Shown in pieces: positions 19,669 to 63,746 of a stretch of DNA of 64,000 bases (its first letter is position 1; every line of letters starts with the position of its first letter). A model generated the notes under the pieces. That model did no database searches. It worked only from the letters and a program-made list of their open reading frames with translations, and had not been told where the DNA came from. Origin of the DNA: Sinomonas atrocyanea (GTDB lineage: Bacteria > Actinomycetota > Actinomycetes > Actinomycetales > Micrococcaceae); assembly GCF_030811715.1 (NCBI RefSeq), contig NZ_JAUSRH010000005.1, forward strand, positions 62,001-126,000. Reading direction: 5' to 3'. The position numbers and the translations under genes are program-made.

Positions 19669-20513
19669 CGCGCCTCCTGCCCGGCCTCGGTGCCGCGCAC
19701 GGGGCGGGCGGCAGCGGCGAAGTGCTTGCGGAGCAGGTCGGCGACGAGCGCCGGGTCCTCGGTGGGGGCGATGTGGGCCACGCCGGGGATCTCGACGGCG
19801 GTGCCGTCCTGGGCGTGCTCGGCCATCCAGCGGGCGTCAGCCATGGGGCAGACGGAGTCGAACTCGCCGGCGACGGCGAGGAACGGGACGGCGATCTCCC
19901 CGAAGCGGTCGCGGACGTCGTAGGCGGCGATGGCGCGGCAGACGGCGGCGTAGCCGAACCGGTCGGCGTCGCGCAGGGTGTGGAGGAGTCGCGAGGACTC
20001 GGTCGGGTGGGAGCCGAGGAACCCGGGGGCGAACCAGATCTCGGCGGAGGCCTGCAGACGGACCGCCGTGCCCTGCTTCGCGACCTGGTCGGCGCGCTCG
20101 GCGTACCCCTCGGCCCCGTTGAAGCGGGCCGACGAGCAGAACATCGCCAGGCTCGCCAGCCGCTCGGGATGCCGCAGGGCCAGTTCCGCGCCCGTCGCCC
20201 CGCCCACCGAGTCGCCGGCGTAGTGGAAGCGGACCGGGTGTCCGTCCTGGGCGGGGATGATCGAGTCGACGAGGGCCACGACCGCGTCCGCGAGCTCGCC
20301 GACGCTGAACTCCGTGTCCGGGTCCGCTGCGGGCGAGATGCCGTGGCCGGGCAGGTCCCAGCCGAGGATGTCGTAGTCGTCGCCGAGGAGGCGCGCGGCG
20401 TCGTCCCACATCACGGTCGAGGTCCCGAGGGAGGGCCCGAGCACCACGAGCTCCTTCTCCCCGAGCTGCTCGCGCGGGCTCAGCCGCACGGCCTTGATCT
20501 TCGGCACGCTCAC
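19665..20513 (-). CDS. pcaD: 3-oxoadipate enol-lactonase
   Basis: A 282-residue alpha/beta hydrolase. The nucleophile elbow GDSVGGATG is near residue 105, an acid is in GEFDSVCP near 230, and the histidine is in PGVAHIAPTEDP near 255. It hydrolyses beta-ketoadipate enol-lactone to beta-ketoadipate. The GTG at 20513 is chosen because AAAGGACGAG lies directly upstream; the in-frame ATG nine codons earlier lacks one. It lies 63 bases after pcaB and overlaps pcaC. Confidence 0.88.
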   Translation of the reverse strand: MSVPKIKAVRLSPREQLGEKELVVLGPSLGTSTVMWDDAARLLGDDYDILGWDLPGHGISPAADPDTEFSVGELADAVVALVDSIIPAQDGHPVRFHYAGDSVGGATGAELALRHPERLASLAMFCSSARFNGAEGYAERADQVAKQGTAVRLQASAEIWFAPGFLGSHPTESSRLLHTLRDADRFGYAAVCRAIAAYDVRDRFGEIAVPFLAVAGEFDSVCPMADARWMAEHAQDGTAVEIPGVAHIAPTEDPALVADLLRKHFAAAARPVRGTEAGQEAR

Positions 20514-20576
20514 GTGCTCGTCCTTTCGGTCGGGTGTCACTGGATGTCACGGTTCAGGGTTCAGCGTGGAGCGGGG

Positions 20577-22070
20577 TCAGGCCCTGTGGAGCTGGCCCCG
20601 CAGCGGTTCGCGGCGCTGGGCCGCGGTGGCTTCGTAGTCGGCGAGGACGCGGTCCACGATCCCGGCGGCGTCGCCGCGGTAGCCCGCCGGGTCGAGCAGC
20701 TCGTCCAGGCGCGCGTCGCTGACCTGGTCCGGGCGCACGACGCCGCGCAGCGCCTCGCGCAGCACCCTCGCCTGCTCGTCGGGGCCGGCGCCGTCCCTGG
20801 CCACGCCGATCGCGGCGTCGACGGCGGACTGGACGCCCTCGCGGCCGCCGTCGGCGACGGGGGCGAGCTCGAGCATGATCCGCTCGCTCGTCAGCAGCGG
20901 CCCGGAGAGCGCAAGGTTGGCGCGCATGCGCTCGGGGAAGACCCGCAGGCCCTCGGCGAGCTCGCGCAGGGCGGCCGCGGCGCCCGAGGCCAGGCGCAGG
21001 AGCGTGCGGAGGGCCGGCCATTCGGTGTGCCAGGCGCCGCCGGTGCGCTCGTCCTCGGACAGGGCCGCGGCGAGCTCGACCTGCGCGGCATGGGCCGGGG
21101 CCTGGAGCGCGGCGGAGCGGATGAGGGTCGAGAGGGCCGGGTTCTGCTTCTGCGGCATCGCCGAGGAGACGCCGCGCCCGGCGGCCAGCGGCTCGCCCAG
21201 CTCCCCGATCTCGGGGCGCGAGAGGAGCATGACGTCGTTGGCCACGTGTCCAGCGGCCGTGCAGGCGGCGGCGAGCGCATGGGCGAGGTCGGTGGCGGGC
21301 CCGCGGAAGGACTGCCACGGCGCGACGGCCGCGTCCAGGCCCGCCCGGCGCGCCCAGTCGGCGGCGAGCGAGGCGGGCTCGGCTCCGAGCGCGACGAGCG
21401 AGGCGTTGGTGCCCGCCGCTCCCCCGCACTGGATCGGGAACCGCAGCGCGGCGAGCCGGTCCTCCGCATGGGCCACGCCCTGGAGCCAGTTGGCGGCCTT
21501 GAGGCCGAAGCTCGAGGGGAGCGAGTGCTGCGCGAGCGTGCGGGCCACCTGCGGGGTGTCCCGGTGCCGCGCCGCGAGGTCCGCGAGGGCGTCGGCGGCC
21601 CCCGCGAGGTCGGCAGAGATGCCCACCACGGCGCGCCGGGCCACGAGCTGCAGTGCCGAGTCGAGCACGTCCTGGCTCGTGAGGCCCTGGTGGACCGCGC
21701 CCTTCCCGGGGCCGTCCGGGTCCGCAGCGGCGACCGCGGCCCGCAGCGCCTTCACGAGGGGGATGACGGGGTTCCCGCCGCCCTGGCCCGCCTCAGCGAG
21801 CGCGGCCGGGCTCAAGGAGGCCGACCGCGTCACCGAGCGGACGGAAGCTCCCGCGCCCTGGCCCGCCAGGCCCGCGGCCTCGAGTGCCTCGGCCCAGCAC
21901 GCCTCGAGGTCGGCCATCGCAGCGACCAACGCGGCGTCACCCGTGGGGACCGCGACGGACGGCGAGGCCCAGACGGGGGCGAGCAGGCCGACGTCGGCCG
22001 GGTCAGGACTGGCCGGGTCAGGACTGGCCGGGCCGGGGGCAGCGGGGCCGGGGGCAGCGGGAACCGTCAT
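20577..22070 (-). CDS. pcaB: 3-carboxy-cis,cis-muconate cycloisomerase
   Basis: A 497-residue member of the fumarase/aspartase superfamily. The signature SSAMPQKQNPALS is near residue 302 and LTSQDVLDSALQ near 130. It closes 3-carboxy-cis,cis-muconate to 4-carboxymuconolactone. It is somewhat longer than typical PcaB because of an N-terminal Ala/Pro/Asp tail encoded by four 15-bp tandem units, so the tail may vary among strains. The start at 22070 lies 20 bases past the pcaG stop. Confidence 0.9.
   Translation of the reverse strand: MTVPAAPGPAAPGPASPDPASPDPADVGLLAPVWASPSVAVPTGDAALVAAMADLEACWAEALEAAGLAGQGAGASVRSVTRSASLSPAALAEAGQGGGNPVIPLVKALRAAVAAADPDGPGKGAVHQGLTSQDVLDSALQLVARRAVVGISADLAGAADALADLAARHRDTPQVARTLAQHSLPSSFGLKAANWLQGVAHAEDRLAALRFPIQCGGAAGTNASLVALGAEPASLAADWARRAGLDAAVAPWQSFRGPATDLAHALAAACTAAGHVANDVMLLSRPEIGELGEPLAAGRGVSSAMPQKQNPALSTLIRSAALQAPAHAAQVELAAALSEDERTGGAWHTEWPALRTLLRLASGAAAALRELAEGLRVFPERMRANLALSGPLLTSERIMLELAPVADGGREGVQSAVDAAIGVARDGAGPDEQARVLREALRGVVRPDQVSDARLDELLDPAGYRGDAAGIVDRVLADYEATAAQRREPLRGQLHRA
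22000..22059 (-). repeat. Four in-frame 15-bp tandem units at the start of pcaB
   Basis: Two copies of GGGTCAGGACTGGCC (22000-22029) are followed by two copies of GGGCCGGGGGCAGCG (22030-22059), read on the plus strand. On the coding strand each unit encodes five residues, AAPGP or ASPDP. The period preserves the frame, so copy number could change without disrupting the enzyme. Confidence 0.9.
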
Positions 22071-22090
22071 CGCTTCTTCCTCGCCCCGGG

Positions 22091-22675
22091 CTAGGCCTGG
22101 CCGTGGAAGTCGAGGAACACGGTCTCGTCCTCGCCCTGCAGCCGGATGTCCCAGTGGAGCGAGCCGTCGGCGAGGCGCTCGGCGATGAGCGTCTTGCGGC
22201 GGGCGGGCTCGAGGGCGGACAGGACGGGATCGTTCGCGAGGGCCTCGGTGTCCTCGGGCAGGTACACGCGGGTGAACAGGCGGTTCAGCAGGCCGCGGGC
22301 CAGCACGGTCACGGCGATGAACGGGGCCTTGCCCGGCTCGGTCGGGCCCGGGTTGACGGTCGTGAAGACGTACTTGCCCGTGTTGCCCACCGCGACGCGG
22401 CCCCAGCCGGTGAAGGTGCGGCCGTCGCGGACCAGCGAGCCGGTCTCGGCGACCACGTTGCCCTTGGCGTCGGCCTGCCAGATCTCCAGCAGGGCGTCCG
22501 GGATCGGGTCGCCGTGGCCGTCCAGCACCGTTCCGTGCAGTGCGACGCTGTCCGGGGAGCCGGGTGGGACGAGCTCGCCGCCCTTCTCGAACGGCAGCGC
22601 GAACCCGTAGAACGGGCCGATGGTCTGCGCGGGGGTTGCCGTCAGGTCTCGGGAAGTGCTGGTCTCAGTGCTCAT
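22091..22675 (-). CDS. pcaG: Protocatechuate 3,4-dioxygenase, alpha subunit
   Basis: A 194-residue intradiol dioxygenase subunit of the alpha class, which forms the active site with PcaH but lacks the full iron ligand set. Visible are TIGPFYGFALPF near the N terminus, the LEIWQADAKG beta-strand segment near 70 and the C-terminal WDIRLQGEDETVFLDF. Its ATG overlaps the 3' end of pcaH by eleven bases, so the two subunits are translationally coupled. Confidence 0.93.
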   Translation of the reverse strand: MSTETSTSRDLTATPAQTIGPFYGFALPFEKGGELVPPGSPDSVALHGTVLDGHGDPIPDALLEIWQADAKGNVVAETGSLVRDGRTFTGWGRVAVGNTGKYVFTTVNPGPTEPGKAPFIAVTVLARGLLNRLFTRVYLPEDTEALANDPVLSALEPARRKTLIAERLADGSLHWDIRLQGEDETVFLDFHGQA

Positions 22676-23483
22676 CGTCGCCCTGCTCTCCGTAGGCTTC
22701 GTTCTCGGTCCAAGTGCGCTTCGGGCCGGTGAGCACGATGTCCCACTCGTAGCCGAGCGCCCACTCGGGCGAGGTCAGGTCATGGTTGTACTTCGCGATG
22801 AGGCGGTCGCGGGCGTCCTGGTCCACGATCGACTGATAGATCGGGTCGAGCGGGAACAGCTGGTCGCCGGGGAAGTACATCTGGGTGACCATGCGCTGCG
22901 TGAACTCCGTGCCGAAGAGGCTGAAGTGGATGTGAGCGGGGCGCCATGCGTTGAGGTGGTTCTTCCACGGGTAGGGGCCGGGCTTGATGGTGAGGAACTC
23001 GTAGGAGCCGTCGGGCCCGGTGATGCAGCGGCCCACGCCCGTGAAGTTCGGGTCGATGGGGGCCGGATGCTGGTCGCGCTTGTGGATGTAGCGGCCGGCC
23101 GAATTGGCCTGCCAGATCTCGACGAGCTGGCCTGCGACGGGGCGGCCGGCGCCGTCGAGCACCTTGCCGCGCAGCACCATGCGCTCGCCGAGCGGCTCGC
23201 CGTTGTGCTGGATGGTCAGGTTGGACTCGAGCGCGTGCACGTCCTGGTGGCCGAACGCCGGGCTGTAGAGCTCGATCGTCTCGGGGTCGGCGTGGTGCAG
23301 GCTCTTGGTGGGGTGCCGCAGGATCGAGCTGCGGTACGGGGCGTAGTCGACGCGCGGCTGCGTCTCGGCGGCGGCGCCTGCAGCCCGCCCGGCCTTGTAG
23401 GACTCCTCGATGTCCCGGATCTCCTGGCTGACGATCGCCTGATTGTCAGCCGCGGCGTCCGACGACTTGACGGGCTCGCCCAT
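22665..23483 (-). CDS. pcaH: Protocatechuate 3,4-dioxygenase, beta subunit
   Basis: The iron-bearing subunit, 272 residues. It opens the ring of protocatechuate between the hydroxyls to give 3-carboxy-cis,cis-muconate. The ligand-bearing region is visible: GRYIHKRDQH (tyrosine), GPYPW (tyrosine) and RPAHIHFSLFG (two histidines), around residues 140-195. The ATG at 23483 has GAGGAGAG just upstream; the longer open frame upstream covers the promoter and is rejected. It is the first gene of the nine-gene pca operon. Confidence 0.93.
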   Translation of the reverse strand: MGEPVKSSDAAADNQAIVSQEIRDIEESYKAGRAAGAAAETQPRVDYAPYRSSILRHPTKSLHHADPETIELYSPAFGHQDVHALESNLTIQHNGEPLGERMVLRGKVLDGAGRPVAGQLVEIWQANSAGRYIHKRDQHPAPIDPNFTGVGRCITGPDGSYEFLTIKPGPYPWKNHLNAWRPAHIHFSLFGTEFTQRMVTQMYFPGDQLFPLDPIYQSIVDQDARDRLIAKYNHDLTSPEWALGYEWDIVLTGPKRTWTENEAYGEQGDDEH

Positions 23484-23559
23484 GGGCTCTCCTCCTCTAG
23501 CTTCCTTGCAGAGTCGTTTCTCAGCAGAGTGCCCCGCGCTTCGCCTGGCATCCTGCTTC

Positions 23560-23589
23560 AGGGTAGCGCGATGTTCGCATCCTGTACAA
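23560..23589 (-). promoter_or_regulatory. Probable promoter of the pca operon
   Basis: On the minus strand TTGTAC (rc of 23584-23589) and TACCCT (rc of 23560-23565) are separated by 18 bases and point at pcaH, about 75 bases upstream of its ATG. The -10 fits TANNNT. The palindromic operator lies immediately upstream of the -35, and a third half-site lies in the spacer. Confidence 0.55.
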
Positions 23590-23606
23590 GTGTTCGTCAT
23601 GCGAAC
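23573..23606. promoter_or_regulatory. IclR-type operator upstream of pcaH
   Basis: A 15-bp palindrome, GTTCG-TCATG-CGAAC, occupies 23592-23606. A third half-site, GTTCGCATCC, lies at 23573-23582 in direct orientation, 19 bases from the first half. PobR and PcaU of Acinetobacter bind three 10-bp repeats arranged as a palindrome plus a direct repeat with a GTTCG core. The match in core sequence and geometry is close. The candidate binder is the IclR protein encoded at the end of the operon. Confidence 0.7.
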
Positions 23607-23739
23607 AAAAGGAAGTGCCGAGACCGTGCGAGGCTGTCCTGCCAATGTAGGTCCGGGCGGCCAGTGTGATCTATAGAACTTCCGATCAACGGAAGAAGCT
23701 GAGTGCTGCTGGAGACCTCGCTCGTTTCACCGCGCCCCG

Positions 23740-52534: not shown

Positions 52535-52654
52535 TGTCCGTTCCTGCCCACTTTGACCGCGAGGGGCGCCCGGACACCCGGCGTGTCGGACCCAACACGC
52601 CGGGCCTTCCCCGCCAAGCTGAGCAGGAACGGACAGCTCAGGAACGGACAGCTC
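52535..52654. repeat. Nested inverted and tandem repeats in a convergent intergenic region
   Basis: Outer inverted repeat: TGTCCGTTCCTGC (52535-52547) pairs with GCAGGAACGGACA (52623-52635). Inner perfect hairpin: CCCGGCGTGT (52577-52586) pairs with ACACGCCGGG (52595-52604). The right outer arm is part of a tandem duplication of AGGAACGGACAGCTC (52625-52639 and 52640-52654), which runs into the stop codon of the flavoprotein gene. Probably a two-way terminator that has partly duplicated. Confidence 0.8.
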
Positions 52655-54440
52655 AGGCCCGGGCGTGCGCCGCGGGCAGCGAGCCGTCGTCCTCGTAGCG
52701 CCCCGCACCGGCCATGTCGCGGCCCGCGACGTACCCGAACGTGAGCGCGGGACCGAGGTTGATCCCGCCGGCCGGGTAGAAGCCGCCCATGACGCTGGCC
52801 TGGTCGTTGCCGGCGACGTACAGCCCGTCGATCGCGGTCCCGTCAGCCCGGAGCACCCGCGCCCGCCCGTCGGCCGCGAGCCCGGCGAAGGTCCCGAAGG
52901 ACCCGGGCACCACCTTGACCGCGTAGAACGGGCCCTTCTCGATCGGCGCGAGCGAGGGGTTCGGCCCGACCTTGGGATCGCCGCCGTACCGGTTGAACTC
53001 GGTCTCGCCCCGCTCGAACTCGGGGTCTGCCCCGACGCGGGCGCCCTCGTTGAACCGCTCGACCGTCTCGCGCAGCCCCGCGGGGTCGATGCCGCACGCG
53101 GCGGCCAGCTCCTCGAGGGTCCGGCCGCGCTTGAGGTAGCCGGAGCGCAGGTACGGGAACAGCGGCACGGGCAGCGGCTTGGACATGCCGAGCGGGTACT
53201 TCCGCACGAACCGCGAGTCGGCGATCTGCCACGACTCGGCTGCTTCCCCCTCGGGCGTGGCGGCCACGAGCGCCGAGACGTAGTCGTAGTAGCCGTTGGC
53301 CTCGTTGACGAACCGCCTCCCGTCGCGGCGCACGCCGATGGAACCGGGCTTGGCGCGGTCCATGATGTGCGGGAACGTGCCGACCCGGCCGCTGCGGTAC
53401 GGGATGAGGGAGACCGGGCACCACGCCGCCGGCGACTCGACGTCGGCGACGAAGTGGGCCCCGACGGACTCGCCGAGCGTGATCCCGTCCCCGCTCGTCT
53501 CCTTCGGCGCGAGCGTCCAGTGCTCGCGCCCGGTCGGGGTCTTGGGGAACAGCGCGCGCCGCCGCTCGACGTCGTTCGGGAACCCGCCCGCCGCGAGGAC
53601 GACGCCGCGCGCGGCCTTGATCTCGTACCCTCCTTCCGGTCCGCCCACCACGGCGCCGGCGACACGGCCCGAGGGATCCGTGGTCAGCCTGACGGCGGGG
53701 GTCGAGACGCGGACGTCCACGCCGAGGTCCTCGGCGCTCTGCAGGAGCCGCCCCACGAGCGCGGTCCCGTTGACGAGCTGCATGCCCCTGCGGTGCACGG
53801 CCAGGTCGAGCACGTGCCGGCCCACCCGCCAGGCCGCGTACGCGAGGCCCTTCACGCTGCCCTGCGACGCGGAGAGGAACGTGGTGAGGTCCGGGCCAGC
53901 CATGATGCCCATGCCGAGGAAGGACGTCTCGTAGAGCTGCCCGCGCAGGAGCTTCCGGACGCGCCGGGAGAGGCGGCGGGCGTTGATCGGCGCCGGGCCG
54001 ACGGAGCGGTGGCCCGTGCCCGCGCCCGGGGTCTTGCCGTAGATGTCCCGGATCTTGGCACCGGGGGTGAACTGGAGTGCCGTCTTGTCCTCGAAGAAGC
54101 CGACCATGTGGGGCACGGCCTCGAGGAACGCGTCGATGCGGGCGGCGTCGTACCGGTCCCCGAGCCGGTGGCGGAGGTAGGTGCGGAACTGCTCGGGGTC
54201 CTCGTCGACGCCGTCGGCCTTCGCGAGCGGGTTGCCTGGGGTCCAGGCCCACCCGCCGGACCACGCGGTCGCGCCGCCGCAGACCTCGGCCTTCTCGACC
54301 ACGACGACGCGCAGCCCGTGGTAGGCGGCCGTCACGGCTGCGGACAGGCCGCCGGCCCCGGAGCCGATGACGAGGACGTCGGTCTCGACTGCTGGGCGGG
54401 AGGCGAGGGGCGAGGCGGGCGTCGGGACGGGGGCGGTCAT
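52653..54440 (-). CDS. FAD-dependent dehydrogenase, KstD/fumarate-reductase-like
   Basis: A 595-residue flavoprotein. The FAD fold is DVLVIGSGAGGLSAAV near residue 20, GGATAWSGGWAW near 57 is the usual conserved loop of ketosteroid-dehydrogenase relatives, and the C-terminal FAD contact is LYVAGNDQASVMGGFYPAGG near 550. Relatives introduce or reduce a double bond next to a carbonyl, as in 3-ketosteroid or 4-oxocyclohexanecarboxylate desaturases. It is the last gene of the seven-gene operon and overlaps the previous gene by four bases. A role in desaturating or aromatising an oxo-cyclohexane ring would suit the operon, but is inferred. Confidence 0.75.
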   Translation of the reverse strand: MTAPVPTPASPLASRPAVETDVLVIGSGAGGLSAAVTAAYHGLRVVVVEKAEVCGGATAWSGGWAWTPGNPLAKADGVDEDPEQFRTYLRHRLGDRYDAARIDAFLEAVPHMVGFFEDKTALQFTPGAKIRDIYGKTPGAGTGHRSVGPAPINARRLSRRVRKLLRGQLYETSFLGMGIMAGPDLTTFLSASQGSVKGLAYAAWRVGRHVLDLAVHRRGMQLVNGTALVGRLLQSAEDLGVDVRVSTPAVRLTTDPSGRVAGAVVGGPEGGYEIKAARGVVLAAGGFPNDVERRRALFPKTPTGREHWTLAPKETSGDGITLGESVGAHFVADVESPAAWCPVSLIPYRSGRVGTFPHIMDRAKPGSIGVRRDGRRFVNEANGYYDYVSALVAATPEGEAAESWQIADSRFVRKYPLGMSKPLPVPLFPYLRSGYLKRGRTLEELAAACGIDPAGLRETVERFNEGARVGADPEFERGETEFNRYGGDPKVGPNPSLAPIEKGPFYAVKVVPGSFGTFAGLAADGRARVLRADGTAIDGLYVAGNDQASVMGGFYPAGGINLGPALTFGYVAGRDMAGAGRYEDDGSLPAAHARA

Positions 54441-55351
54441 GCGGGGGCTCCGTTCGGTGCGGCAGGGGCGGGATGGGAAGGGCGGGCTTCGGCGAGCGCC
54501 GACGCCTCGGCGAGGACGGCTTCCGCGGCGCGCCGGAGGCGGCGCGCCCAGCCGAGGGCGCCGAGGCGTTCGACGTCGTGCGGGGACGGGGCCTCGACGC
54601 TCACGGGCAGCGTGGCGGGCAGCGCCGCGACGATCTCGGCGAGTCCAAGGCCGCCCTCGCCGGGAGCGAGCCGGGCGGCGCGGGACTCGTGGACGAGGCC
54701 CTCGCGGTCGCCGGGCCGCTCCGCGGGGGCGTCGCAGAGCTGGAGCATCGGCACGAGGCCGGCGACCGCCGCGAGCTCTTGGAGGGTGCCGCCGAAGCGG
54801 CGGAAGTGCAGGGTGTCGACCACCACCTCTGCCCCGGCGGCCCGCGCGGCCTGGGCCGCGGCGGGCAGCGAGTTGATGCGCTGGTACGAGATGGGCTCGA
54901 GCGTGGGCGTGATGCCGAATGCGCGGCCGTCCTCTGCCATCCGGGCGAGGTTCTCCGCGAACCGGCCCGGCTCTGGGTCGGCCCCGGCCACGGTCATGGT
55001 CCTGGCCCCGAGGGCGTGCCCGGCCTCGAACATGCGCAGCCAGGCGTCCCGCTGGCCGTGGAGGCCGCCTGATCCGCGGTCATCCTGGCCGTCCATCAGG
55101 AGGAACTCGATATCCAGGACGCGGACGCCGGTGGAGCGGACGTTGGCGAGGGTCTCGGCGAGCATCGGCGACCCAGGCTGCAGGTCGTAGGGCCGCTCGG
55201 CGGGCGTGACGGGCCGGACGCGCGCACCGATGAAGTCGAAGCCCGCCTCGGCCGCGACGAGCACGAGGTCCGGCGGTGCGGTCTCGAGGAGGGAGAGCTG
55301 GGCGAGCCCCACCTGGCGCGTGGCGTGCCCGGGGCCGGTCGCGGGGGTCAT
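54437..55351 (-). CDS. Sugar-phosphate isomerase/epimerase-like TIM barrel, possible 3-dehydroshikimate dehydratase
   Basis: A 304-residue xylose-isomerase-like barrel (AP_endonuc_2 superfamily). Likely metal ligands occur in order: Glu in PTLEPI near residue 155, Asp and His in VVDTLHF near 188, and Glu in VSVEAPSP near 265. This layout is shared by 3-dehydroshikimate dehydratases of the AsbF/QuiC group as well as sugar epimerases. The operon also encodes a shikimate-type dehydrogenase and transporter, so conversion of 3-dehydroshikimate to protocatechuate is an attractive role. It overlaps both neighbours by four bases. Confidence 0.65.
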   Translation of the reverse strand: MTPATGPGHATRQVGLAQLSLLETAPPDLVLVAAEAGFDFIGARVRPVTPAERPYDLQPGSPMLAETLANVRSTGVRVLDIEFLLMDGQDDRGSGGLHGQRDAWLRMFEAGHALGARTMTVAGADPEPGRFAENLARMAEDGRAFGITPTLEPISYQRINSLPAAAQAARAAGAEVVVDTLHFRRFGGTLQELAAVAGLVPMLQLCDAPAERPGDREGLVHESRAARLAPGEGGLGLAEIVAALPATLPVSVEAPSPHDVERLGALGWARRLRRAAEAVLAEASALAEARPSHPAPAAPNGAPA

Positions 55352-57513
55352 GCGGTGGCTCCTTCGAGGATGCGGGGGGAGGAGGCAGGCGAGACGGGGG
55401 CGTGTCCCGGCTCGGGTGAGAGGGCGGCGGCGAGGCGCTGGGCGGCGTCGTACCCGCTCTTGATCGCGTTCGAGGCCGTGGGCGGCAGCTGGTCGACGAC
55501 CGTCCCGGCGAGCACCACCGGCGCGCCCGCGCCGAGCCCGAGCGCGGCCTCTCGGCCCTCCCGGTCCACCGCCGAGCTCAGCGGCACGACGCCGCGGGAG
55601 ACCAGGAGCGGCCCGGGCGCGTCCAGCCAGCGCTCGCCGTCGGGCCCGACGACGCGGATGCGGGCCGCGGGGGTGCCGGGTGCCTGGGCCTCGACGAGGC
55701 GCGCGTCGAGCACGATCCGCACCTGCGGGCTGGCCTCGAGGCGCGGGACGGCGAGGATCTTGGCGCGGCGCCCGGATTCGGGGGCGATGGCCCGCTCGGG
55801 GCCGATCAGCAGCACCCGGGTGCCGCGGGCCGCGAGGGTGTCCGCGACGGACATGGCGACCGAGTCGGCGCCCCAGATCGTGACGGCCTCCGGCAGGTCG
55901 CTGCCGTCCGGCCCGGAGCTGCCGGCGAGGAGGCCCGGACGCGCGGCGAGCCAGTCGCGGACATCGAGCACGCCGTCGCCCGCCTCGACGCCGTCGCCCG
56001 CCTGGCCCCCGGCGCCCGTGACCCGGAAGTCCGGCTCGGGGCGGCCTCCTCCGGTCGCGAGCACAATGCCGTCGGCGCCGAACTCCCGCACCGGGCCGCG
56101 GAGGTCGCCCGCGTCCACGGGGCAGCCGAGGCGCACCTCCACGCCGAGGCGCGCGAGCTCGGCGCGATTCCAGTCGAGGTAGCGGTGGAAGTCCGGGGTG
56201 GGGCGCATCCCGGCGGCGAGCGCGAACTGGCCGCCGATCCGCTCCCCCGCCTCCACCAGCGTGACCCGCGCTCCGGCCCCGGCGAGCTCGCGCGCGGCGG
56301 TCAGGCCCGCGGGCCCGGCGCCCAGCACGAGGGCGTGGGGTGCCGGGGCGGCGCGCACGACGGCGCCGGGCCGGCTCGCGTCGTCGTCGCGGCGGAGGGC
56401 GGGGGTCGGCACGGGAACCCGCGAGCGCCCGACCGCCGGGTTGACGGTACACGTGACCTGCCCGAGACCGAGGTTGTCGATGCACACGTTGCAGGCGATG
56501 CAGGGCCGGTACGGCGAGCCGTCCAGGACGCCCCGGACGAAGGCCTGGTCGGCGTGCACGGCGCGGCCGAGGGAGACGAAGTCGCACACGCCGTCGGCGA
56601 GGGCCGTCTCGATGGCCTCGGGCGAGTTGAGACGGCCCGCCAGGCCGAGGGGCAGCCCGAACCGGCGGTAGGCCCGCGCGTACTCGGCGAGGACGCCGGG
56701 CCTCCACTCCCCCGACTGCACGATCCACTCTCCCGCCTCGTAGGAGCCGGCGGAGAGGTCCAGGAAGTCCAGCGCCTCCAGGTCGAGCCGGGCGACGACC
56801 TCGAGGGTCTGCTCGGCGTCGAGCCCGTCCGCAACGCCTTCGAGCACGGAGAGGCGGATCCCGACGAGCGCCTCCGGGGCGGCGGCCCGGACGGCCCGGA
56901 TCACGAGGTTCGCGAAGTGCTCGGGGGCGCCGAACTCGTCGGAGCGGCCGTTGGTGCGCGCGGACATGAACTGGTGGACGAGGTAGCCGTGGCCGCCGTG
57001 GATGCTGATGGCGTCGAACCCGGCCGCGACGGCCCGGCGCGCCGCCAGCGCGTAGGCATCGACGAGCTCGTGGCACTCCTGCGTGGTGAGCGCACGGGGC
57101 ATCTCGCCGCCGGCGACCTCGCAGGGCACGGCGGCGGGGGCGACGGGCGGGAGGCCGCTCACGGCGGACTGCGCGGTGCGGCCGCCGTGGTTGATCTCGA
57201 CGGCGGCCAGGGCGCCGGCGGCGTGGACCGCGTCGGTGAGCTCGCGGAACCCGGGCACGACGGCGTCGGTGTGCAGGCCGAGCTGGTGCGTGCGGCCCTT
57301 GCCGTCGGCGCGGACGTAGGTGGCCTCGGTGGTGACGATCGCGAGGCCGGCCCGCGCCCGGGTCACGAGGTAGTCCGCGTACTGGGCGGTCATGCGCCCG
57401 TCCGTGGTGCCGTAGTTGCGCTCCATCGGGGAGCTCACGAGCCGGTTGCGGAGCGTGCGCGGGGGGCGGCCGTTGCGGCCGAGGGTGAGCGGCTGGGAGG
57501 CGTGGTGGGTCAT
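55348..57513 (-). CDS. NADH:flavin oxidoreductase, 2,4-dienoyl-CoA-reductase-like
   Basis: A 721-residue three-domain enzyme. An Old Yellow Enzyme TIM barrel (about residues 1-340; SIHGGHGYLVHQFMS near 168) is followed by a [4Fe-4S] motif C-x2-C-x3-C-x11-C (CIACNVC then CTVNP near 340-360). Then come an FAD fold (LVLGAGPAGLTAAREL near 395) and a second dinucleotide fold. Family members reduce or rearrange conjugated enones. Here it may handle an unsaturated ring intermediate. The start at 57513 is 12 bases past the previous gene. Confidence 0.82.
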   Translation of the reverse strand: MTHHASQPLTLGRNGRPPRTLRNRLVSSPMERNYGTTDGRMTAQYADYLVTRARAGLAIVTTEATYVRADGKGRTHQLGLHTDAVVPGFRELTDAVHAAGALAAVEINHGGRTAQSAVSGLPPVAPAAVPCEVAGGEMPRALTTQECHELVDAYALAARRAVAAGFDAISIHGGHGYLVHQFMSARTNGRSDEFGAPEHFANLVIRAVRAAAPEALVGIRLSVLEGVADGLDAEQTLEVVARLDLEALDFLDLSAGSYEAGEWIVQSGEWRPGVLAEYARAYRRFGLPLGLAGRLNSPEAIETALADGVCDFVSLGRAVHADQAFVRGVLDGSPYRPCIACNVCIDNLGLGQVTCTVNPAVGRSRVPVPTPALRRDDDASRPGAVVRAAPAPHALVLGAGPAGLTAARELAGAGARVTLVEAGERIGGQFALAAGMRPTPDFHRYLDWNRAELARLGVEVRLGCPVDAGDLRGPVREFGADGIVLATGGGRPEPDFRVTGAGGQAGDGVEAGDGVLDVRDWLAARPGLLAGSSGPDGSDLPEAVTIWGADSVAMSVADTLAARGTRVLLIGPERAIAPESGRRAKILAVPRLEASPQVRIVLDARLVEAQAPGTPAARIRVVGPDGERWLDAPGPLLVSRGVVPLSSAVDREGREAALGLGAGAPVVLAGTVVDQLPPTASNAIKSGYDAAQRLAAALSPEPGHAPVSPASSPRILEGATA

Positions 57514-57525
57514 GGCGGCACCTTC

Positions 57526-58620
57526 CTAGGCGGTCTGTTCTGGGGCGGTGGGGGTCAGGCGGACCGGGCGGCCAGTGCGGGAGGACTCGTAGACGGCGAG
57601 GAGGATCCTCAGCGCGGCGGTGGCGTCATGGCCCGTGACCGCCGGGGCGCGGCCTTCGCCGAGGGCCCCGACGAAGTCGCGGATCTGGGCGGTGTGGTGC
57701 GGGATGAGCTGGCCGTTGATCGCGGCCAGGTCCACGTCCGGGTCGACGCCGGCGGGATGCGCGGGCTCGGACTCGACCGCGCCGCCCTGGGCGAGGACGG
57801 TCACCCGGCCGTCGGTGCCCTCGGGGAACTCGGTGAGCTCGGCCGTCGCGCCGGTCTCGCCCGTGATGCGGATGCTGACGCCGAGGCTCGGGGCGGCGGC
57901 CGTCGTCGCCGAGAGCGTGGCCATCGCCCCGGAGGCGAAGCGGAGCACGGCCGCCGCGGTGTCCTCGACCTCGATCGCGTGCGTGAACGTGGCGGCGTGG
58001 CCGTGCACCTCGACGACCTCGCCCATGAGCCACTGCAGGAGGTCGATGTAGTGGATGGCCTGGGTCATGAGCACGCCGCCGCCGTCGGTGGCCCACGTCC
58101 CGCGCCACGCTGTGCCCGTCCCGGCGGCGCCGGAGTAGTACTCCGGCTCCCGGTGCAGCAGCACCGAAGCGTGGCCGAGGATCGGGCGGCCGAGCGCGCC
58201 GTCGTCGACCGCGGCGCGGAGGCGCTGGGCGGCCGGCCAGAAGCGGCGCTGGAACAGGACGCCGAGGCGCACGCCGGCGGCGTCGCACGCGGCGACCATC
58301 CGCTCGGCGGAGGCGAGGTCGATCGCGATCGGCTTCTCGCACAGCACGTGTGCGCCCGCGGCCGCGGCGGCGAGGACCACGGCCTCGTGGGTGGGATGCG
58401 GGGTGCACACCGAGACGACGTCGACGCCGGCGGCCAGGATCTCCTCGACAGAGCCGAAGGCGCCGTCGATCCCCCAGCGCGCCGCCGTCTCGCGGGCCCG
58501 GCCGGCGTCGACGTCGCACACCGCCACGACGGTGGCCTGCGGGATCGCGGCGAAGGCCTCGAGGTGGTTGCGGCTGATCGCCCCGCACCCCACGATCCCC
58601 ACGCGGTAGGGCGCGCTCAT
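57526..58620 (-). CDS. Gfo/Idh/MocA-family oxidoreductase
   Basis: A 364-residue NAD(P)-dependent dehydrogenase. The N-terminal Rossmann motif is GIVGCGAISRNH near residue 8, CEKPIAID near 95 carries the usual active-site lysine, and a C-terminal alpha/beta domain has GGVLMTQAIHYIDLLQWL near 180. Substrates of the family are cyclitols and sugars. Within this operon a quinate- or cyclitol-like polyol is a reasonable substrate. The ATG overlaps the upstream dehydrogenase stop (ATGA). Confidence 0.82.
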   Translation of the reverse strand: MSAPYRVGIVGCGAISRNHLEAFAAIPQATVVAVCDVDAGRARETAARWGIDGAFGSVEEILAAGVDVVSVCTPHPTHEAVVLAAAAAGAHVLCEKPIAIDLASAERMVAACDAAGVRLGVLFQRRFWPAAQRLRAAVDDGALGRPILGHASVLLHREPEYYSGAAGTGTAWRGTWATDGGGVLMTQAIHYIDLLQWLMGEVVEVHGHAATFTHAIEVEDTAAAVLRFASGAMATLSATTAAAPSLGVSIRITGETGATAELTEFPEGTDGRVTVLAQGGAVESEPAHPAGVDPDVDLAAINGQLIPHHTAQIRDFVGALGEGRAPAVTGHDATAALRILLAVYESSRTGRPVRLTPTAPEQTA

Positions 58621-59570
58621 GACAGCTCCGTTCCGGCCCGCGCGGCGAGCTCGAGGAAGTGGGCACGCATCCGGGCGCGGTCGGCACGGCGGCCCGTGAA
58701 CAGCTCGAACGAGTCCGCGGCCTGGGCCACGGCCATCCAGCCGCCGTCGAGGACGCGGCAGCCCGCCGCGAGCGCGGCCTTCACGAGCTGGGTCTCGAGC
58801 GGGCGGTATACGACGTCGGCCACCCAATGCCGCGGCGCGAGGGCCGAGGCGTCGAACGGCGTCCCGGGGTGGCCCACCATGCCGATCGGGGTCGCGTTCA
58901 CCACGCCGTCGGCCTCGGCGAGGCGGGCGGGAACCTCCTCGAGGACGACGGCGGCGACCCGCCCCGCGCCGTCGGCCGCGGCTGGGTTCCCGGTGCGGTG
59001 CGCGGCAACGTGCCCGGCGAGGCGGGCGGCGAGGCCGTCTGCGCGGGCGGGGTCGACGTCGGCCACAAGGAGCGTCCCGACGCCGGCATCGAGGAGGGCG
59101 CGGGCGACGGCGGAGCCGGCCCCGCCCGCGCCGACGAGCAGCACCGTGCCGAGGGCGGCGCCGGGCAGGCCCTCGGCGAGCGCCGCGCGGAAGCCGGTGT
59201 GGTCGGTGTTGCGGCCGGTGAGCCGTGCACCGGGGACGGATCCGCCCGGGCGGGGGCCGCCGTCGTGCGTCCCGATCACCACGGTGTTGACCGCCCCCAG
59301 CTCCCGCGCGTCGTCGGAGAGCCCGTCGAGGCCGCCGATGACCGACTGCTTGCACGGGTGCGTGACGTTCAGGCCCGTGTAGCCGAGCCGGGCGGCGTCC
59401 CGGGCAAGCTGCCCGGCGGCGTCGGGAGTGAGGCCGAGCTCGTCGAGGTCCAGCGTGCGGTAGGCGTAGCGGAGGCCGTGGGCGGCGGCCTCGCGCTCGT
59501 GCAGGAGCGGGCTGAGCGAGCCGGTGACGTTCGCGCCGATGAGGCCGATGAGGTGGCTGGGGGCGGTCAT
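58617..59570 (-). CDS. Shikimate/quinate 5-dehydrogenase (AroE family, catabolic context)
   Basis: A 317-residue AroE-family protein with the full substrate set. GSLSPLLHE near residue 16 gives the paired serines, NVTHPCKQ near 68 the catalytic lysine, GRNTDHTGF near 123 the aspartate, and GWMAVAQAADSF near 285 the glutamine. The nucleotide loop is LLVGAGGAGSA near 145. It interconverts shikimate and 3-dehydroshikimate, or quinate and 3-dehydroquinate. Location among transporter and catabolic genes, not among aromatic biosynthesis genes, points to a degradative role like QsuD. It is longer than the biosynthetic AroE average. Confidence 0.83.
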   Translation of the reverse strand: MTAPSHLIGLIGANVTGSLSPLLHEREAAAHGLRYAYRTLDLDELGLTPDAAGQLARDAARLGYTGLNVTHPCKQSVIGGLDGLSDDARELGAVNTVVIGTHDGGPRPGGSVPGARLTGRNTDHTGFRAALAEGLPGAALGTVLLVGAGGAGSAVARALLDAGVGTLLVADVDPARADGLAARLAGHVAAHRTGNPAAADGAGRVAAVVLEEVPARLAEADGVVNATPIGMVGHPGTPFDASALAPRHWVADVVYRPLETQLVKAALAAGCRVLDGGWMAVAQAADSFELFTGRRADRARMRAHFLELAARAGTELS

Positions 59571-59621
59571 GGGGTGATTCCTTGTGCGTGGGGGGCGGGG
59601 TCGGGAGGTGGGTCCCTGGGG

Positions 59622-60361
59622 TCAGTAGGTGGCGCGGCCGCCGGAGAGGTCGTAGACGAAGCCGGTGGTGTAGGAGGCGTCCGGGGAGAGGCGATGTACT
59701 CGACGAGCGCGGCGGCCTCCTCCGCCGTCCCCAGCCGGCCCAGGGGGATCCGGGCGAGGTCCGCGTCCGTCACCGTGAGGTCCCTGATGAGCGGGGTGGC
59801 GATCTTGCCGGGCGCGATCGCGTTCACCGTCACGCCCGAGGCCGCGTACTCCTTCGCCAGGGCCTTGGTGAGGCCCATGATCCCGGCCTTGCTCGCGGAG
59901 TAGGCGGCCATCCCGGCCACGCCCTCCTTCCCGGCGGTCGAGGCGAAGTGGATGAGCCGGCCCGACCCGCTGCGGGCCAGGTGCGGCAGCACGGCCCGGG
60001 AGACGAGGAATGCGCCCGTGAGGTTGACCCGCAGCGTCCGCTCGAAGGACTCGAGGGTCTCCTCGGCCGCCGGGCGGACCTCGCCGACGATCCCGGCCGT
60101 GTTGACGACGACGTCGAGCCGCCCGCCGGTCTGCGCGAGGGCCTTCGCGACGCCCGCCTCGACCGACGCGGGATCGGTGACGTCGAGGTCCACGTGGGCC
60201 ACCCCGGCGTCGGTGCCGTGCCGCGGGGCGCCGGGCAGGTCGGCGGCGACCAGGGCGGCCGCGGCGGGGGCCAGACGGTCGACGACGGCACGGCCGATGC
60301 CCGAGGCGGCGCCGATGACGAGGCACCGGAGGCCCACCGGCCGGATCCCCCCGGCAGCCAT
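59622..60361 (-). pseudogene. Short-chain dehydrogenase interrupted by a frameshift
   Basis: An SDR that starts with the ATG at 60361 (VIGAASGIGRA near residue 15, NTAGIVG near 80, active-site YSASKAG near 140, NAIAPGKIATP near 172). It reads in frame to VEYIA near 59690. The expected C terminus, LSPDASYTTGFVYDLSGG followed by RATY and a stop at 59622, is in another frame; one base missing (or two extra) at about 59690 restores it. The actual frame runs on in Pro/Thr-rich text to 59567. The gene is either newly broken or carries a sequencing error; all catalytic residues are upstream of the shift. The start overlaps the transporter stop. Confidence 0.75.
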
Positions 60362-61737
60362 CAGTTCGCCGCCGTTCCCTGGGCCGGGACGGGGAGCGAG
60401 TCCGCGGTCTCGGTGCGGCGGCGGGACCGGCGGCCGAGCTCCTCCTTGGGGACCCGGTAGGTCTCCCGGGCCGAGAGCACCGCGAGGGCCGAGATCGTGC
60501 AGAAGGCCACCGTCATCCAGCCCACCGGGCCCCAATTGGCGGAGTTGCCCGCGGTGATCGCGGCGCCGATCGCGGGCGTGAAGCCGGCCACGACGAGGCC
60601 GAGCATGAGGCTCACGGCCATGCCGGAGTAGCGCGTGCGGGCAGGGAACAGCTCGGGGAAGTAGGCGGGGTAGACGCCGTTGGGCATCGCGTAGAACACG
60701 CCCGTGAGGCCGATCCCGGCGGCGAAGATGAGCGGCCAGCTGCGGGTGGAGAGGGCCCCGAAGAAGGCGAAGACCATGACCGCGCTGCCGAGCGCGCCGA
60801 CGATGAAGACCGGCTTGCGGCCGATCCTGTCCGCGAGGAGGGCGAAGAGCGGCTGGGTGACGACAGTGACGGCGTTGGCGACGGCGATCACCACGAGCAT
60901 CGTCGGCTTGTCCAGCTTCACGACCTCGGTCGCGTAGGTCAGCGCGAACACCGTGAAGACGGTGCCGACCATGGTCACGAGGGCGGCGAGTGTCACGCGG
61001 ACGACGTTCGGGAAGTCGTTGCGGAAGAGGTCCACGAGCGGGACCGCGGCGGTCTTCGCGTCGTCCTTGATCTCGGCGAACAGCTCGGGCTCCTCGAGCC
61101 TGCGGCGCAGGTAGAAGGCGACGAAGGTGACCACGGCGCTGAGCAGGAACGGGATGCGCCAGCCCCAGGACAACAGGACCGACTGCGGGAGCATGGTGAC
61201 CGGAATGAAGACGATGCTCGAGACGACGATGCCGAACTGGATGCCGCTCATCGTGAAGCTCGTGAAGAAGGCCCGGCGCCCCTCCGGCGCATGCTCGAGC
61301 GTGAGGGAGCTCGAGCCGGGCGACTCGCCGCCGGCCGAGAGCCCCTGGACGAAGCGGAGCGCGATGAGCGCGGTGGGCGCGAGGCCTCCGATGGCGCTGT
61401 AGGTGGGGAGGCAGCCGATGAGGAAGGTCGAGGTCCCCATGAGCACGAGCGTCAGGAGCAGGACGTTCTTGCGCCCCAGCCGATCGCCGAAGTGGCCCCA
61501 GATCACGGCGCCGAGCGGGCGCGCCACGTAGGCGACTCCGAGGGTGGCGAACGAGAGCAGCGTCCCGGCGGCCCCGGCGTCGGGGAAGAACAGCTTGCCG
61601 AAGAACAGGGCGGCGGCGGAGCCGAAGATGAAGAAGTCGTAATACTCGAGCGTGCTGCCGAGGAAACCGGACAGGGCCGCAATCCGCGCGTTCTTGCTGC
61701 GCGGGGTGCGGGAGTCGGGGGATGTCGACGCTGACAT
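60361..61737 (-). CDS. MHS-family MFS transporter (shikimate-type)
   Basis: A 458-residue twelve-helix transporter of the metabolite:H+ symporter family: TLEYYDFFIFGSAAAL near residue 30, GHFGDRLGRKN near 82 (motif A), RFVQGLSAGGESPGS near 128 and LLSWGWRIPFLLSA near 187. The family includes ShiA (shikimate) and other organic-acid carriers. As the first gene of an operon with a shikimate-type dehydrogenase, it most likely imports shikimate, quinate or a similar cyclic acid. A palindrome sits about 100 bases upstream. Confidence 0.85.
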   Translation of the reverse strand: MSASTSPDSRTPRSKNARIAALSGFLGSTLEYYDFFIFGSAAALFFGKLFFPDAGAAGTLLSFATLGVAYVARPLGAVIWGHFGDRLGRKNVLLLTLVLMGTSTFLIGCLPTYSAIGGLAPTALIALRFVQGLSAGGESPGSSSLTLEHAPEGRRAFFTSFTMSGIQFGIVVSSIVFIPVTMLPQSVLLSWGWRIPFLLSAVVTFVAFYLRRRLEEPELFAEIKDDAKTAAVPLVDLFRNDFPNVVRVTLAALVTMVGTVFTVFALTYATEVVKLDKPTMLVVIAVANAVTVVTQPLFALLADRIGRKPVFIVGALGSAVMVFAFFGALSTRSWPLIFAAGIGLTGVFYAMPNGVYPAYFPELFPARTRYSGMAVSLMLGLVVAGFTPAIGAAITAGNSANWGPVGWMTVAFCTISALAVLSARETYRVPKEELGRRSRRRTETADSLPVPAQGTAAN

Positions 61738-61837
61738 GAGTGCTCCCTTCGGGTGATGCCGCTCACGGAAGGTGGCGGCTCATCCAGCATGGGGGCACCC
61801 ACTGTGGTGCGTCCAACACTTAGTTGATCTAGGACTA

Positions 61838-61866: not shown

Positions 61867-62748
61867 TCACTCCGCCACGGGGGCGGCGGCCTCCTCCGGC
61901 CTGGCCTGCGAGCGCGGACGCCGGAAGGTGAGCAGGAACGCGACCACGGCCGCGAGGAACAGCAGGCCCGAGACCCAGGTGTTGACCCGGAGCCCGAGGA
62001 TGAGGTTCGCGTAGTCCGAGCGCATGAGCTCGAAGACGAACCGCCCGGCCGTGTACGCGGCGACGTACAGGGCGAGCACGCTCCCGGCACCGAGCCGGAC
62101 CTTCCGGTCGAGCCAGATGATCGCGGCCGCCGTCACGAGGCACCAGATCGACTCGTAGAGGAAGGTGGGCTGGAAGTAGCCGAGCACCACCGGGTTTCCG
62201 GCGGCGTCCGTGACGGCGCGGCCGGAGGAGAGGTCCATCTGGTGGATCTGCAGGCCCCAGGGCAGATCGGTCGGGTCGCCGTAGAGCTCGTTGTTGAACC
62301 AGTTGCCCCACCGGCCGATCCCCTGGGCAGCCAGCACCCCGGGGGCCACGGCGTCGGCGAAGCCCAGGAAGGAGGCGCCAGCGCGGCGGCACCCGATCCA
62401 CACGCCCACCGCGCCTAGCGCCACGGCGCCCCAGATGCCGAGCCCGCCGTCCCAGATGGCGAATGCGTTCCACGGGTTCTTCCCGGGCAGGAAGTACAGC
62501 TCGGGGTCGGTGATGACGTGGTAGATGCGCCCGCCCACGATCCCGAACGGCACCGCCCACAGGCTGATGTCGATCGCCTCCCCGGGCCGCCCGCCCCGCT
62601 CCCGCCACCGGCGTGCCGTGATCCACACGGCGACGGCGATGCCGAGCATGATGCACAGGGCGTAGAAGTGGATGGTCAGCGGTCCCAGATGGAAGCCGCT
62701 CACGGTGGGGGATGGGAAGTAGGCCGGGACCGACACGCTCGCGCTCAC
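61867..62748 (-). CDS. lgt: Prolipoprotein diacylglyceryl transferase
   Basis: A 293-residue membrane enzyme that adds diacylglycerol to the lipobox cysteine of preprolipoproteins. Signatures are HFYALCIMLGIAVAVW near residue 26, GGRIYHVITD near 72, GRWGNWFNNELYG near 137 (the Lgt signature) and GRFVFELMRSDYAN near 240. The GTG at 62748 has AGGA upstream. In related genomes lgt usually sits beside trpA, so this copy, next to catabolic genes, may be a paralogue. Confidence 0.9.
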   Translation of the reverse strand: MSASVSVPAYFPSPTVSGFHLGPLTIHFYALCIMLGIAVAVWITARRWRERGGRPGEAIDISLWAVPFGIVGGRIYHVITDPELYFLPGKNPWNAFAIWDGGLGIWGAVALGAVGVWIGCRRAGASFLGFADAVAPGVLAAQGIGRWGNWFNNELYGDPTDLPWGLQIHQMDLSSGRAVTDAAGNPVVLGYFQPTFLYESIWCLVTAAAIIWLDRKVRLGAGSVLALYVAAYTAGRFVFELMRSDYANLILGLRVNTWVSGLLFLAAVVAFLLTFRRPRSQARPEEAAAPVAE

Positions 62749-62795: not shown

Positions 62796-63689
62796 TCACG
62801 CCGGCGTGGGCAGCACCTGCTCGGCGACCTCGAGCACGTGCGGCAGCACGCGGGACGGGTTGGCGGGCGCCCAGGCGAGCCCGTGCTGGAGGTAGGGCTG
62901 GGGGCCGGAGAGCGGGACGTACACGGCCCCGTGCGGCAGGATGTCGCTCATGCCCTCGCTCACGAGGCTCACGCCCATGCCGGCGGCGACGAACGTGAGG
63001 ATCATGAACGGGTCGCCGATCGTCTGCACCACGCGGGGCCGGAATCCCGCCGCGACGCGGGCCGCCGTGGCCGTGCGCTCGAGGTCCGAGCCGCCCCCGG
63101 AGGGCATCATGATGAAGTCCTCCCCGCGCAGCTCGGCCAGGTCGAGCGGGGCGCGCTGGGCGAGCGGATGGTCCACGGGCACGACGGCGCCGAGCGCCTC
63201 GCGCGCTATCAGCCGAGAGGCGAGCGGAGACGGGTCGAGCGGAAGCCCCACGAAGGCCAGGTCGAGCGTCCCCTGAATGAGCTGCGCGACGGCGTCGCCC
63301 GTCACCACGCGGCCCTGCAGCGAGAGGACCACGTCCGGGTAGCGCCGGCGCAGCGCCCGCGTGAGCCGCGGGAGCGTGCGGTGGTTGATGGCGCCCGTGA
63401 AGCTCATCGTCAGGTGCCCGTAGACGGTGCCCACGGAGGCATGCGCGGCCTGCCGGGCGACCTCCAGCTCGTCCAGGGCCCGGTACGCGTGCGGCAGGAG
63501 CGAGCGGCCGGCGGGGGTGAGGGCCACGCTGCGCGTGCTGCGGTCGAACAGGGGCACGCCCATGTCCTTCTCGAGCTTGCGGATGGTCTGGCTCAGCGGC
63601 GACTGCGCCATGTGCAGGCGCGTGGCCGCCCGCCCGAAGTGCAGCTCCTCCGCCACCGCGACGAACGCCTCGAGCCACCTGATCTCCAC
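62796..63689 (-). CDS. LysR-family transcriptional regulator
   Basis: A 297-residue LysR protein. The winged HTH is within residues 1-60 (FGRAATRLHMAQSPLSQTIRKLE), and an effector domain follows with GTLDLAFVGLP near 135 and FVAAGMGVSLVSEG near 235. I take the GTG at 63689 (start of VEIRWLEAF, the usual LysR beginning); a TTG four codons earlier is possible. It is divergent from the MFS gene at the window edge with a 57-base gap, so that gene is its most likely target. Confidence 0.87.
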   Translation of the reverse strand: MEIRWLEAFVAVAEELHFGRAATRLHMAQSPLSQTIRKLEKDMGVPLFDRSTRSVALTPAGRSLLPHAYRALDELEVARQAAHASVGTVYGHLTMSFTGAINHRTLPRLTRALRRRYPDVVLSLQGRVVTGDAVAQLIQGTLDLAFVGLPLDPSPLASRLIAREALGAVVPVDHPLAQRAPLDLAELRGEDFIMMPSGGGSDLERTATAARVAAGFRPRVVQTIGDPFMILTFVAAGMGVSLVSEGMSDILPHGAVYVPLSGPQPYLQHGLAWAPANPSRVLPHVLEVAEQVLPTPA

Positions 63690-63746
63690 GGGCCCATTCA
63701 AGCACCTGCCCGCGCCGCCCGAGCAGCGGCTGAGTAGGGTGGACGG

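Follow-up and report, generated by a model that had tools for sequence, protein, structure and literature searches.

Which compound is broken down by an operon that places a putative flavin desaturase next to an enzyme of the dehydroshikimate dehydratase (DSD) type? We addressed this question in a 64,000-nucleotide stretch of Sinomonas atrocyanea DNA (assembly GCF_030811715.1, contig NZ_JAUSRH010000005.1, positions 62,001 to 126,000 of the forward strand), hereafter the window, whose own numbering is used below. Open reading frames searched with Pfam and NCBIfam models gave seven genes at 52653-61737, all on the minus strand: an MFS transporter, an SDR dehydrogenase, an AroE-type dehydrogenase, a Gfo/Idh dehydrogenase, an OYE-type flavoenzyme, a TIM barrel and a KstD-like flavoprotein. 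An original prediction, made from the letters alone, had given the same order and coordinates, and we corrected only the 3' end of the SDR gene. It had also proposed conversion of a shikimate- or quinate-like acid by a non-standard enzyme set, and both of these points stand; its view of the OYE as foreign to qui sets and its likening of the KstD-like protein to cyclohexanecarboxylate (chc) pathway desaturases were not supported.

As judged from sequence, conversion of a shikimate- or quinate-like acid into protocatechuate is well supported, because the barrel keeps DSD active-site residues, the AroE protein keeps shikimate-binding positions, and protocatechuate dioxygenase genes (pcaHG) lie in the window. 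We further propose, with a probability of about 0.45, that the operon imports and aromatises an acid with the shikimate skeleton and a more reduced ring, such as dihydroshikimate or an isomer. Here we infer the substrate, the order of steps and the product; a new alicyclic acid is a plausible substrate.

A parallel shikimate-type system in one genome

The same genome carries a two-domain QsuB-like DSD clustered with a QsuD-like AroE at C5:191300-194200 (positions 5783-8733, minus strand, of locus L105), about 68 kb from the operon. The N-terminal domain of this QsuB-like protein is 50% identical to a Paracoccus query. The operon is a parallel system beside this canonical cluster, and since a standard-looking qsu set lies elsewhere in the genome, the earlier statement that the operon is not the standard set can be made more sharply. 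One type II dehydroquinase was found in the genome, on another contig and not in the operon, and no type I enzyme was detected in the genome. With no dehydroquinase in the operon, we came to regard quinate as a less probable sole substrate and dropped that reading.

The best solved match of the operon's AroE protein was C. glutamicum QsuD (3jyo). The two agree at seven of eight compared positions, which we take to be substrate-binding, with Ser in place of Thr19. The pca cluster lies about 29 kb from the operon; its PcaF, PcaD and PcaB models score below cut-off, and a part of pcaG was matched at 22337-22549.

The barrel keeps most dehydroshikimate dehydratase residues

The barrel has 304 residues and a single Pfam domain (in a run on 285 residues), and the C-terminal HPPD-like domain of two-domain DSDs is not present. 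According to PMC7442255, the DSD classes other than the two-domain one are single-domain. Up to an E-value of 0.1, the only solved structure matched by sequence was Listeria Lmo2234 (5e-06). A profile of 20 barrel relatives ranked Lmo2234 first (5.4e-19), followed by the DSD QuiC1 (4.6e-13), IolI (2.6e-08) and D-tagatose 3-epimerases (0.006 and worse). The predicted model (predicted local distance difference test score 91) has the overall xylose isomerase-like/epimerase fold. Its best fold match was again Lmo2234 (Z 30.2), tied with QuiC1 (29.4) and IolI (29.3), and named epimerases reached Z scores of at most 25.8. Because the fold is common to both, it cannot by itself decide between a DSD and an isomerase.

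Nine of the ten active-site residues in the QsuB list of PMC7442255, all but Leu97, were compared with the barrel in an alignment of 33 rows, and seven are identical. The metal ligands Glu134, Asp165, Gln191 and Glu239 of QsuB correspond to Glu152, Asp179, Gln204 and Glu253 of the barrel, and His168, Ser206 and Arg210 correspond to His182, Ser223 and Arg227. At the sites of Gln204 and Ser223, residues that the barrel shares with the four canonical DSDs compared, IolI (1i60) carries His and Thr. A BLASTP comparison of the barrel with the genome's own QsuB gave no meaningful match. In a tree of barrels, the operon-type proteins separate from the canonical DSDs; nine branches of this tree are open and its joining of IolI with canonical DSDs is possibly false, so only this separation was used.

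The fold raises the alternative of a sugar or glycoside system, in which the Gfo/Idh enzyme oxidises C3 and the barrel is an isomerase, an epimerase or a 3-keto-glycoside lyase. Gfo/Idh-barrel pairs do occur in such systems, the Gfo/Idh protein is nearest the inositol 2-dehydrogenase model (below its cut-off), and by fold IolI and QuiC1 match the barrel equally well. The profile ranking, however, places QuiC1 above IolI and D-tagatose 3-epimerase, the His and Thr of IolI differ from the Gln204 and Ser223 that the barrel has in common with canonical DSDs, and AroE, KstD and OYE do not fit sugars. We consider a sugar system very improbable. Grouping of the barrel with sugar epimerases, which the original prediction had named as evidence against itself, was not seen in the profile ranking or the residues, although no tree that included epimerases was made and by fold the barrel ties with IolI. 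An epimerase reading of the barrel was dropped on the ranking and the residues.

A KstD-type gene recurs beside the barrel

To describe conservation, we fetched 55 named loci, chosen for the presence of the barrel and for agreement with two peptide patterns. They are not independent, because 54 are actinobacterial, mostly Micrococcaceae; the remaining one is from Ahrensia. Partners were counted within about 10 kb of the barrel, and matches below 80 bits were dropped. KstD and Gfo/Idh were each found in 51 loci, MFS in 49, LysR in 47, OYE in 33, AroE in 29 and SDR in 23. Further partners were an aldo-keto reductase (34 loci), a zinc alcohol dehydrogenase (31) and a ChcC1-side flavoprotein (24). 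Since these partners recur near the barrel across the 55 loci, the gene set is more than chance. Twenty-five loci combine AroE, Gfo/Idh, KstD, MFS, LysR and the barrel; 12 of these also have OYE, and 9 have both OYE and SDR.

In 47 loci the KstD gene (at least 50% identity) shares its strand with the barrel and is within 1.3 kb of it, and in 4 it lies on the other strand. Four loci are without it; the contigs of L084 and L091 are short or truncated, and those of L094 (from Ahrensia) and L095 are not. In many relatives, the ChcC1-side flavoprotein, the zinc alcohol dehydrogenase and a YciI-like protein make up a second, optional module; they stand in one block, for example, at 4284-7376 of L030 and 10195-13235 of L032.

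Beyond this set, barrel-match regions were fetched for 20 of 25 other genomes, and 8 of the 122 records found in a plasmid search were opened. In two species of Paracoccus, in Marinovum and in Paraburkholderia, the barrel follows a KstD-type gene immediately or after one small intervening gene; in P. aminovorans and Marinovum a two-domain DSD-like gene is also near the pair. In Rhodococcus a KstD-type flavoprotein is found one gene away on the opposite strand, and in Sagittula about 3 kb away. In Klebsiella we found AroE, KstD-like frames (recognised by eye and apparently split), the barrel and Gfo/Idh. No KstD-type flavoprotein is annotated at the Arthrobacter Hiyo8 barrel locus. Taken together, we conclude that in every lineage opened except Arthrobacter Hiyo8 the barrel comes with some flavoprotein of a kind suited to chemistry on a ring C=C bond, of differing families. 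The PLSDB "plasmid" records for Klebsiella (L117, CP125156, 5.4 Mb) and Listeria (L118, CP030101, 2.9 Mb) resemble chromosomes by their size.

The barrel-linked KstD proteins sampled form one clade without Tyr119

The KstD-like protein of the operon passes the PRK12839 model NF009476, which covers FAD-dependent oxidoreductases of the KSTD superfamily (Table 1). It falls below the cut-offs of both chc desaturases (ChcC2, 511 of 900 bits; ChcC1, 315 of 1000 bits). In a tree of 36 KstD-type proteins, 17 actinobacterial operon-type proteins, the Rhodococcus protein and four proteobacterial ones form one group (support 96 by the Shimodaira-Hasegawa-like approximate likelihood ratio test, SH-aLRT), apart from ChcC1, ChcC2 and two other KstD groups; the trees were quickly built with SH-aLRT as the only support, and ChcC1, ChcC2 and 7p18 are long branches. 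The Sagittula protein joins another group, outside this clade. What is new here is that a related KstD accompanies the barrel in both actinobacteria and proteobacteria, and that the barrel-linked KstD proteins sampled form a single clade.

The clade is also set apart by a residue. We take Tyr119, Tyr318 and Tyr487 to be the catalytic residues of KSTD (3-ketosteroid delta1-dehydrogenase). Among 37 aligned rows, KSTD1 included, all 22 proteins of this clade have Ile, Val, Thr or Phe where KSTD1 has Tyr119, and all 15 others keep Tyr. The equivalents of Tyr318, Tyr487 and Gly491 are kept in all 37. The operon's protein has Ile133 at the Tyr119 site and Tyr384 and Tyr555 at the Tyr318 and Tyr487 sites.

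These results bear on a chc-like route, in which 4-oxocyclohexanecarboxylate-type acids without ring hydroxyls would be desaturated twice. The score of 511 bits with the ChcC2 model, the 136 bits of the SDR with the ChcB2 model and the ChcC1-side flavoprotein in 24 of the 55 loci would all fit such a route. Both desaturase scores are, however, far below cut-off, the route gives no role to AroE and the DSD-type barrel, and genuine chc genes are present on another contig: ChcC1, ChcC2, ChcB1 and ChcB2 stand together on contig C9 (L041, 5763-12402), all over their NCBIfam cut-offs. Because all four pass, this Sinomonas genome, judged by those models, should also aromatise cyclohexanecarboxylate. 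A chc-like role for the operon is thus unlikely, and chc identity for its KstD-like protein was dropped on the scores, the C9 cluster and the tree.

A possible route from a reduced shikimate relative to protocatechuate

Counting formulas separates the possible substrates. Shikimate becomes protocatechuate by loss of two hydrogens and one water, that is, by one oxidation and one dehydration, with no desaturase required. Dihydroshikimate must lose four hydrogens and one water, which corresponds to one NAD-linked oxidation, one dehydration and one desaturation. Since the shikimate route requires no flavin desaturase, the conserved desaturase suggests a substrate that probably carries two hydrogens more than shikimate, as dihydroshikimate does.

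In the route that we propose, the MFS protein would take up the hydroaromatic acid, and AroE, SDR and Gfo/Idh would turn ring hydroxyls into a ring ketone by NAD(P)-linked oxidation. The barrel would then catalyse metal-dependent loss of water beside the ketone to give an enone. DSD removes the C5 hydroxyl beside a C3 ketone, and the same hydroxyl would leave here. The KstD-like flavoprotein would remove two more hydrogens to yield protocatechuate; with midpoint rooting it falls on the ChcC2 side of the tree, and it may finish the ring much as ChcC2, by its model name, finishes an enone. The pca gene products would open the protocatechuate ring, and the OYE may act on a ring C=C bond in either direction. 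Four cysteines of the OYE, which combines FMN and NAD/FAD domains, align with those of 2,4-dienoyl-CoA reductase (1ps9). The OYE scores below the named equivalogs (TIGR03997, 277 of 793 bits; BaiCD, 224 of 825 bits) and can be assigned to the superfamily only.

The alternative that deserves most attention is a second, plain quinate/shikimate route, in which AroE delivers 3-dehydroshikimate, the barrel is an ordinary DSD that forms protocatechuate, and KstD, OYE, Gfo/Idh and SDR play an auxiliary part in handling side compounds or stereoisomers. The conserved metal ligands and the His, Ser and Arg of the barrel agree with it, as do the AroE positions and the Lmo2234 locus, which has barrel, OYE, AroE, MFS and LysR genes with no KstD seen. 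Yet no partner is more constant than KstD and Gfo/Idh, and a plain route needs no desaturase; the operon has no dehydroquinase; and the QsuB/QsuD-like cluster already in the genome makes a plain duplicate less likely. We regard this route as possible, though we would not expect it to be the correct one.

Several points weigh against a reduced-ring substrate. Dehydroshikimate may be the substrate of the barrel, which would then be no more than a DSD, and Listeria QuiC2 acts on that compound according to a title cited in PMC9324987. The match to the QsuB residue list is incomplete: Arg64, in the PFRDF stretch, has no counterpart in the barrel, which reads IEFLLMDG there with a conserved Glu82, and Leu136 is Ile154. 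Lmo2234 likewise lacks the PFRDF stretch and has Met at the Leu136 site; Glu82 and Arg185 are common to the barrel and Lmo2234 and were not found in the canonical DSDs compared (for Glu82, three of four, the QuiC1 fragment being too short). The position of Ser223 holds Ala in five, Gly in two and Thr in IolI among the 33 rows, and the KstD-adjoining barrels of Paracoccus aminovorans and Marinovum have His at Gln204, as IolI does. Because the Tyr119 equivalent is lost, the chemistry of the barrel-linked KstD clade may differ from that of KSTD. An OYE of the ene-reductase type is hard to place beside a desaturase, just 29 of the 55 loci have AroE within about 10 kb of the barrel, and the enzymes of one operon need not serve one line.

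More broadly, the barrel and the Tyr119-less KstD could be a widespread two-enzyme module that dehydrates and then desaturates ring-saturated relatives of shikimate. From quinate and shikimate, lactobacilli form dihydroshikimate and 3,4-dihydroxycyclohexanecarboxylate by reduction. Aerobes might recover acids that fermenters would make by reducing shikimate and quinate with the OYE or flavocytochrome-type enzymes of the sister loci in Listeria and Ligilactobacillus salivarius, so that one kit would be reductive in one group and oxidative in the other. This extension is speculative and we hold it to be somewhat unlikely. If the proposed reading is right, proteins annotated as "sugar isomerase" and "FAD-dependent oxidoreductase" would gain a role in breakdown of plant ring acids, and the aromatisation steps would follow a new order. 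The retention of a second route beside one for shikimate that looks normal would also be accounted for, and cross-feeding between fermenters and aerobes would be suggested. Open-licence PMC literature, screened by title and start of abstract, held nothing on the operon or on a KstD-DSD link, which does not by itself show absence in print; it did include papers on QsuB-type DSDs and three that use the name QuiC2. We conclude that the operon is a real, conserved and little-studied second shikimate-type set, a variant of known DSD loci.

Operon layout and neighbouring features

The genes are tightly packed. Stop and start codons overlap by 1 nucleotide at MFS/SDR and by 4 nucleotides each at AroE/Gfo, OYE/barrel and barrel/KstD, and 12 nucleotides separate Gfo from OYE. 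Relative to sister locus L019, the SDR gene has two extra nucleotides near its 3' end, at about 59681-59693. Its last 20 or so residues are out of frame, and the plain reading frame ends at 59567 instead of about 59622; the excess may be a real change or an assembly error.

The window and six of seven same-genus loci (all but L025) carry identical copies of the 17-bp block that precedes the MFS gene. Allowing up to 3 mismatches, the block has one match in the window against 0.01 expected. Near it, an inverted repeat (TGTGCG...CGCACA) occurs only in the window, L020 and L025. The lgt gene between the LysR gene and the operon has the same position in some other Sinomonas loci. It was dropped as a pathway gene, being present in just 3 of the 55 loci, and is probably no part of the pathway. 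Of the two lgt-family matches in the genome it gives the stronger (the weaker is on contig C7), so it is possibly the housekeeping copy.

Table 1. Features of the operon and its surroundings, with window positions and the basis of each assignment.
Feature	Position	Strand	Basis
MFS metabolite/H+ symporter, shikimate-transporter-like	60361..61737	-	TIGR00883, 353 bits (cut-off 443); NF007414 shikimate transporter, 307 bits (cut-off 538)
SDR dehydrogenase, 3' end disturbed	59567..60361	-	Pfam adh_short (query frame begun one codon early, at 60364)
AroE/QsuD-type shikimate/quinate dehydrogenase paralogue	58617..59570	-	NF009201, 347 bits (cut-off 235); 3jyo, 7.8e-64
Gfo/Idh/MocA dehydrogenase, inositol-2-dehydrogenase-like	57526..58620	-	Pfam; TIGR04380, 162 bits (cut-off 355)
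FadH/BaiCD-like OYE flavoenzyme, Fe-S-type cysteines, FAD/NAD domain	55348..57513	-	Pfam Oxidored_FMN and Pyr_redox_2; 1ps9, 1.1e-44
TIM-barrel dehydratase, DSD type, nearest Lmo2234	54437..55351	-	Sequence, profile, residues, fold
KstD-like FAD desaturase, barrel-linked clade	52653..54440	-	NF009476, 1037 bits (cut-off 940); tree; residues
LysR-type regulator, probable operon regulator	62796..63701	-	Pfam LysR_substrate and HTH_1; homologue in 47/55 loci
lgt (prolipoprotein diacylglyceryl transferase), between LysR gene and operon	61867..62748	-	Pfam LGT, 223 bits; 3/55 loci
Conserved 17-bp block upstream of MFS gene, candidate regulatory site	61810..61826	-	Kept in same-genus loci
pca genes (PcaF-, PcaD-, PcaB-like, pcaG, pcaH), probable product sink	17936..23645	-	pcaH TIGR02422, 340 bits (cut-off 296)

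Comparison with known systems

With the canonical qsu cluster (L105) the operon shares an AroE/QsuD-type dehydrogenase and the DSD metal ligands with His, Ser and Arg, and an MFS-like frame is seen by eye near that cluster. The operon differs in that its barrel has neither the Arg64 motif nor an HPPD-like domain, and in its added KstD, Gfo/Idh, OYE and SDR genes. The chc cluster (L041) shares desaturases of the KstD superfamily, SDRs and an MFS homologue; in 19.9 kb it has no barrel or AroE match, and its ChcC1 and ChcC2, both long branches, stand apart from the barrel-linked clade. KSTD itself (4c3x/7p18) has in common with the operon's flavoprotein the FAD-binding family and Tyr318, Tyr487 and Gly491, whereas Tyr119 is replaced by Ile133.

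The Listeria Lmo2234 locus (L118) runs LysR-like, barrel, OYE, AroE-like, MFS-like, MFS-like, where the OYE was identified by model and the others by eye. We take this locus to be qui2 and its barrel to be QuiC2. Shared with the Sinomonas operon are the LysR-like gene, the DSD-type barrel with its Glu82 and Arg185 (29% identical over 228 columns), the FadH/BaiCD-type OYE (32% identical over 490 columns), and the AroE-like and MFS-like genes. Among reading frames of at least 150 residues in the 14.8 kb read, Listeria has no KstD, Gfo/Idh or SDR, all three of which are present in Sinomonas. The statement that an OYE is no part of qui sets fails if this locus is indeed qui2, because its OYE lies between barrel and AroE.

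The locus on Ligilactobacillus salivarius pMP118 (L119) likewise unites LysR, barrel, SDR, a flavoprotein and AroE. It differs in having AroD and in its flavoprotein, which is nearest a flavocytochrome c model (TIGR01813, 207 bits, cut-off 285) and not KstD. This flavocytochrome-c-like gene (L119, 9665-11380) sits between the barrel/SDR pair and AroE, and ring reduction is a possible function for its product.

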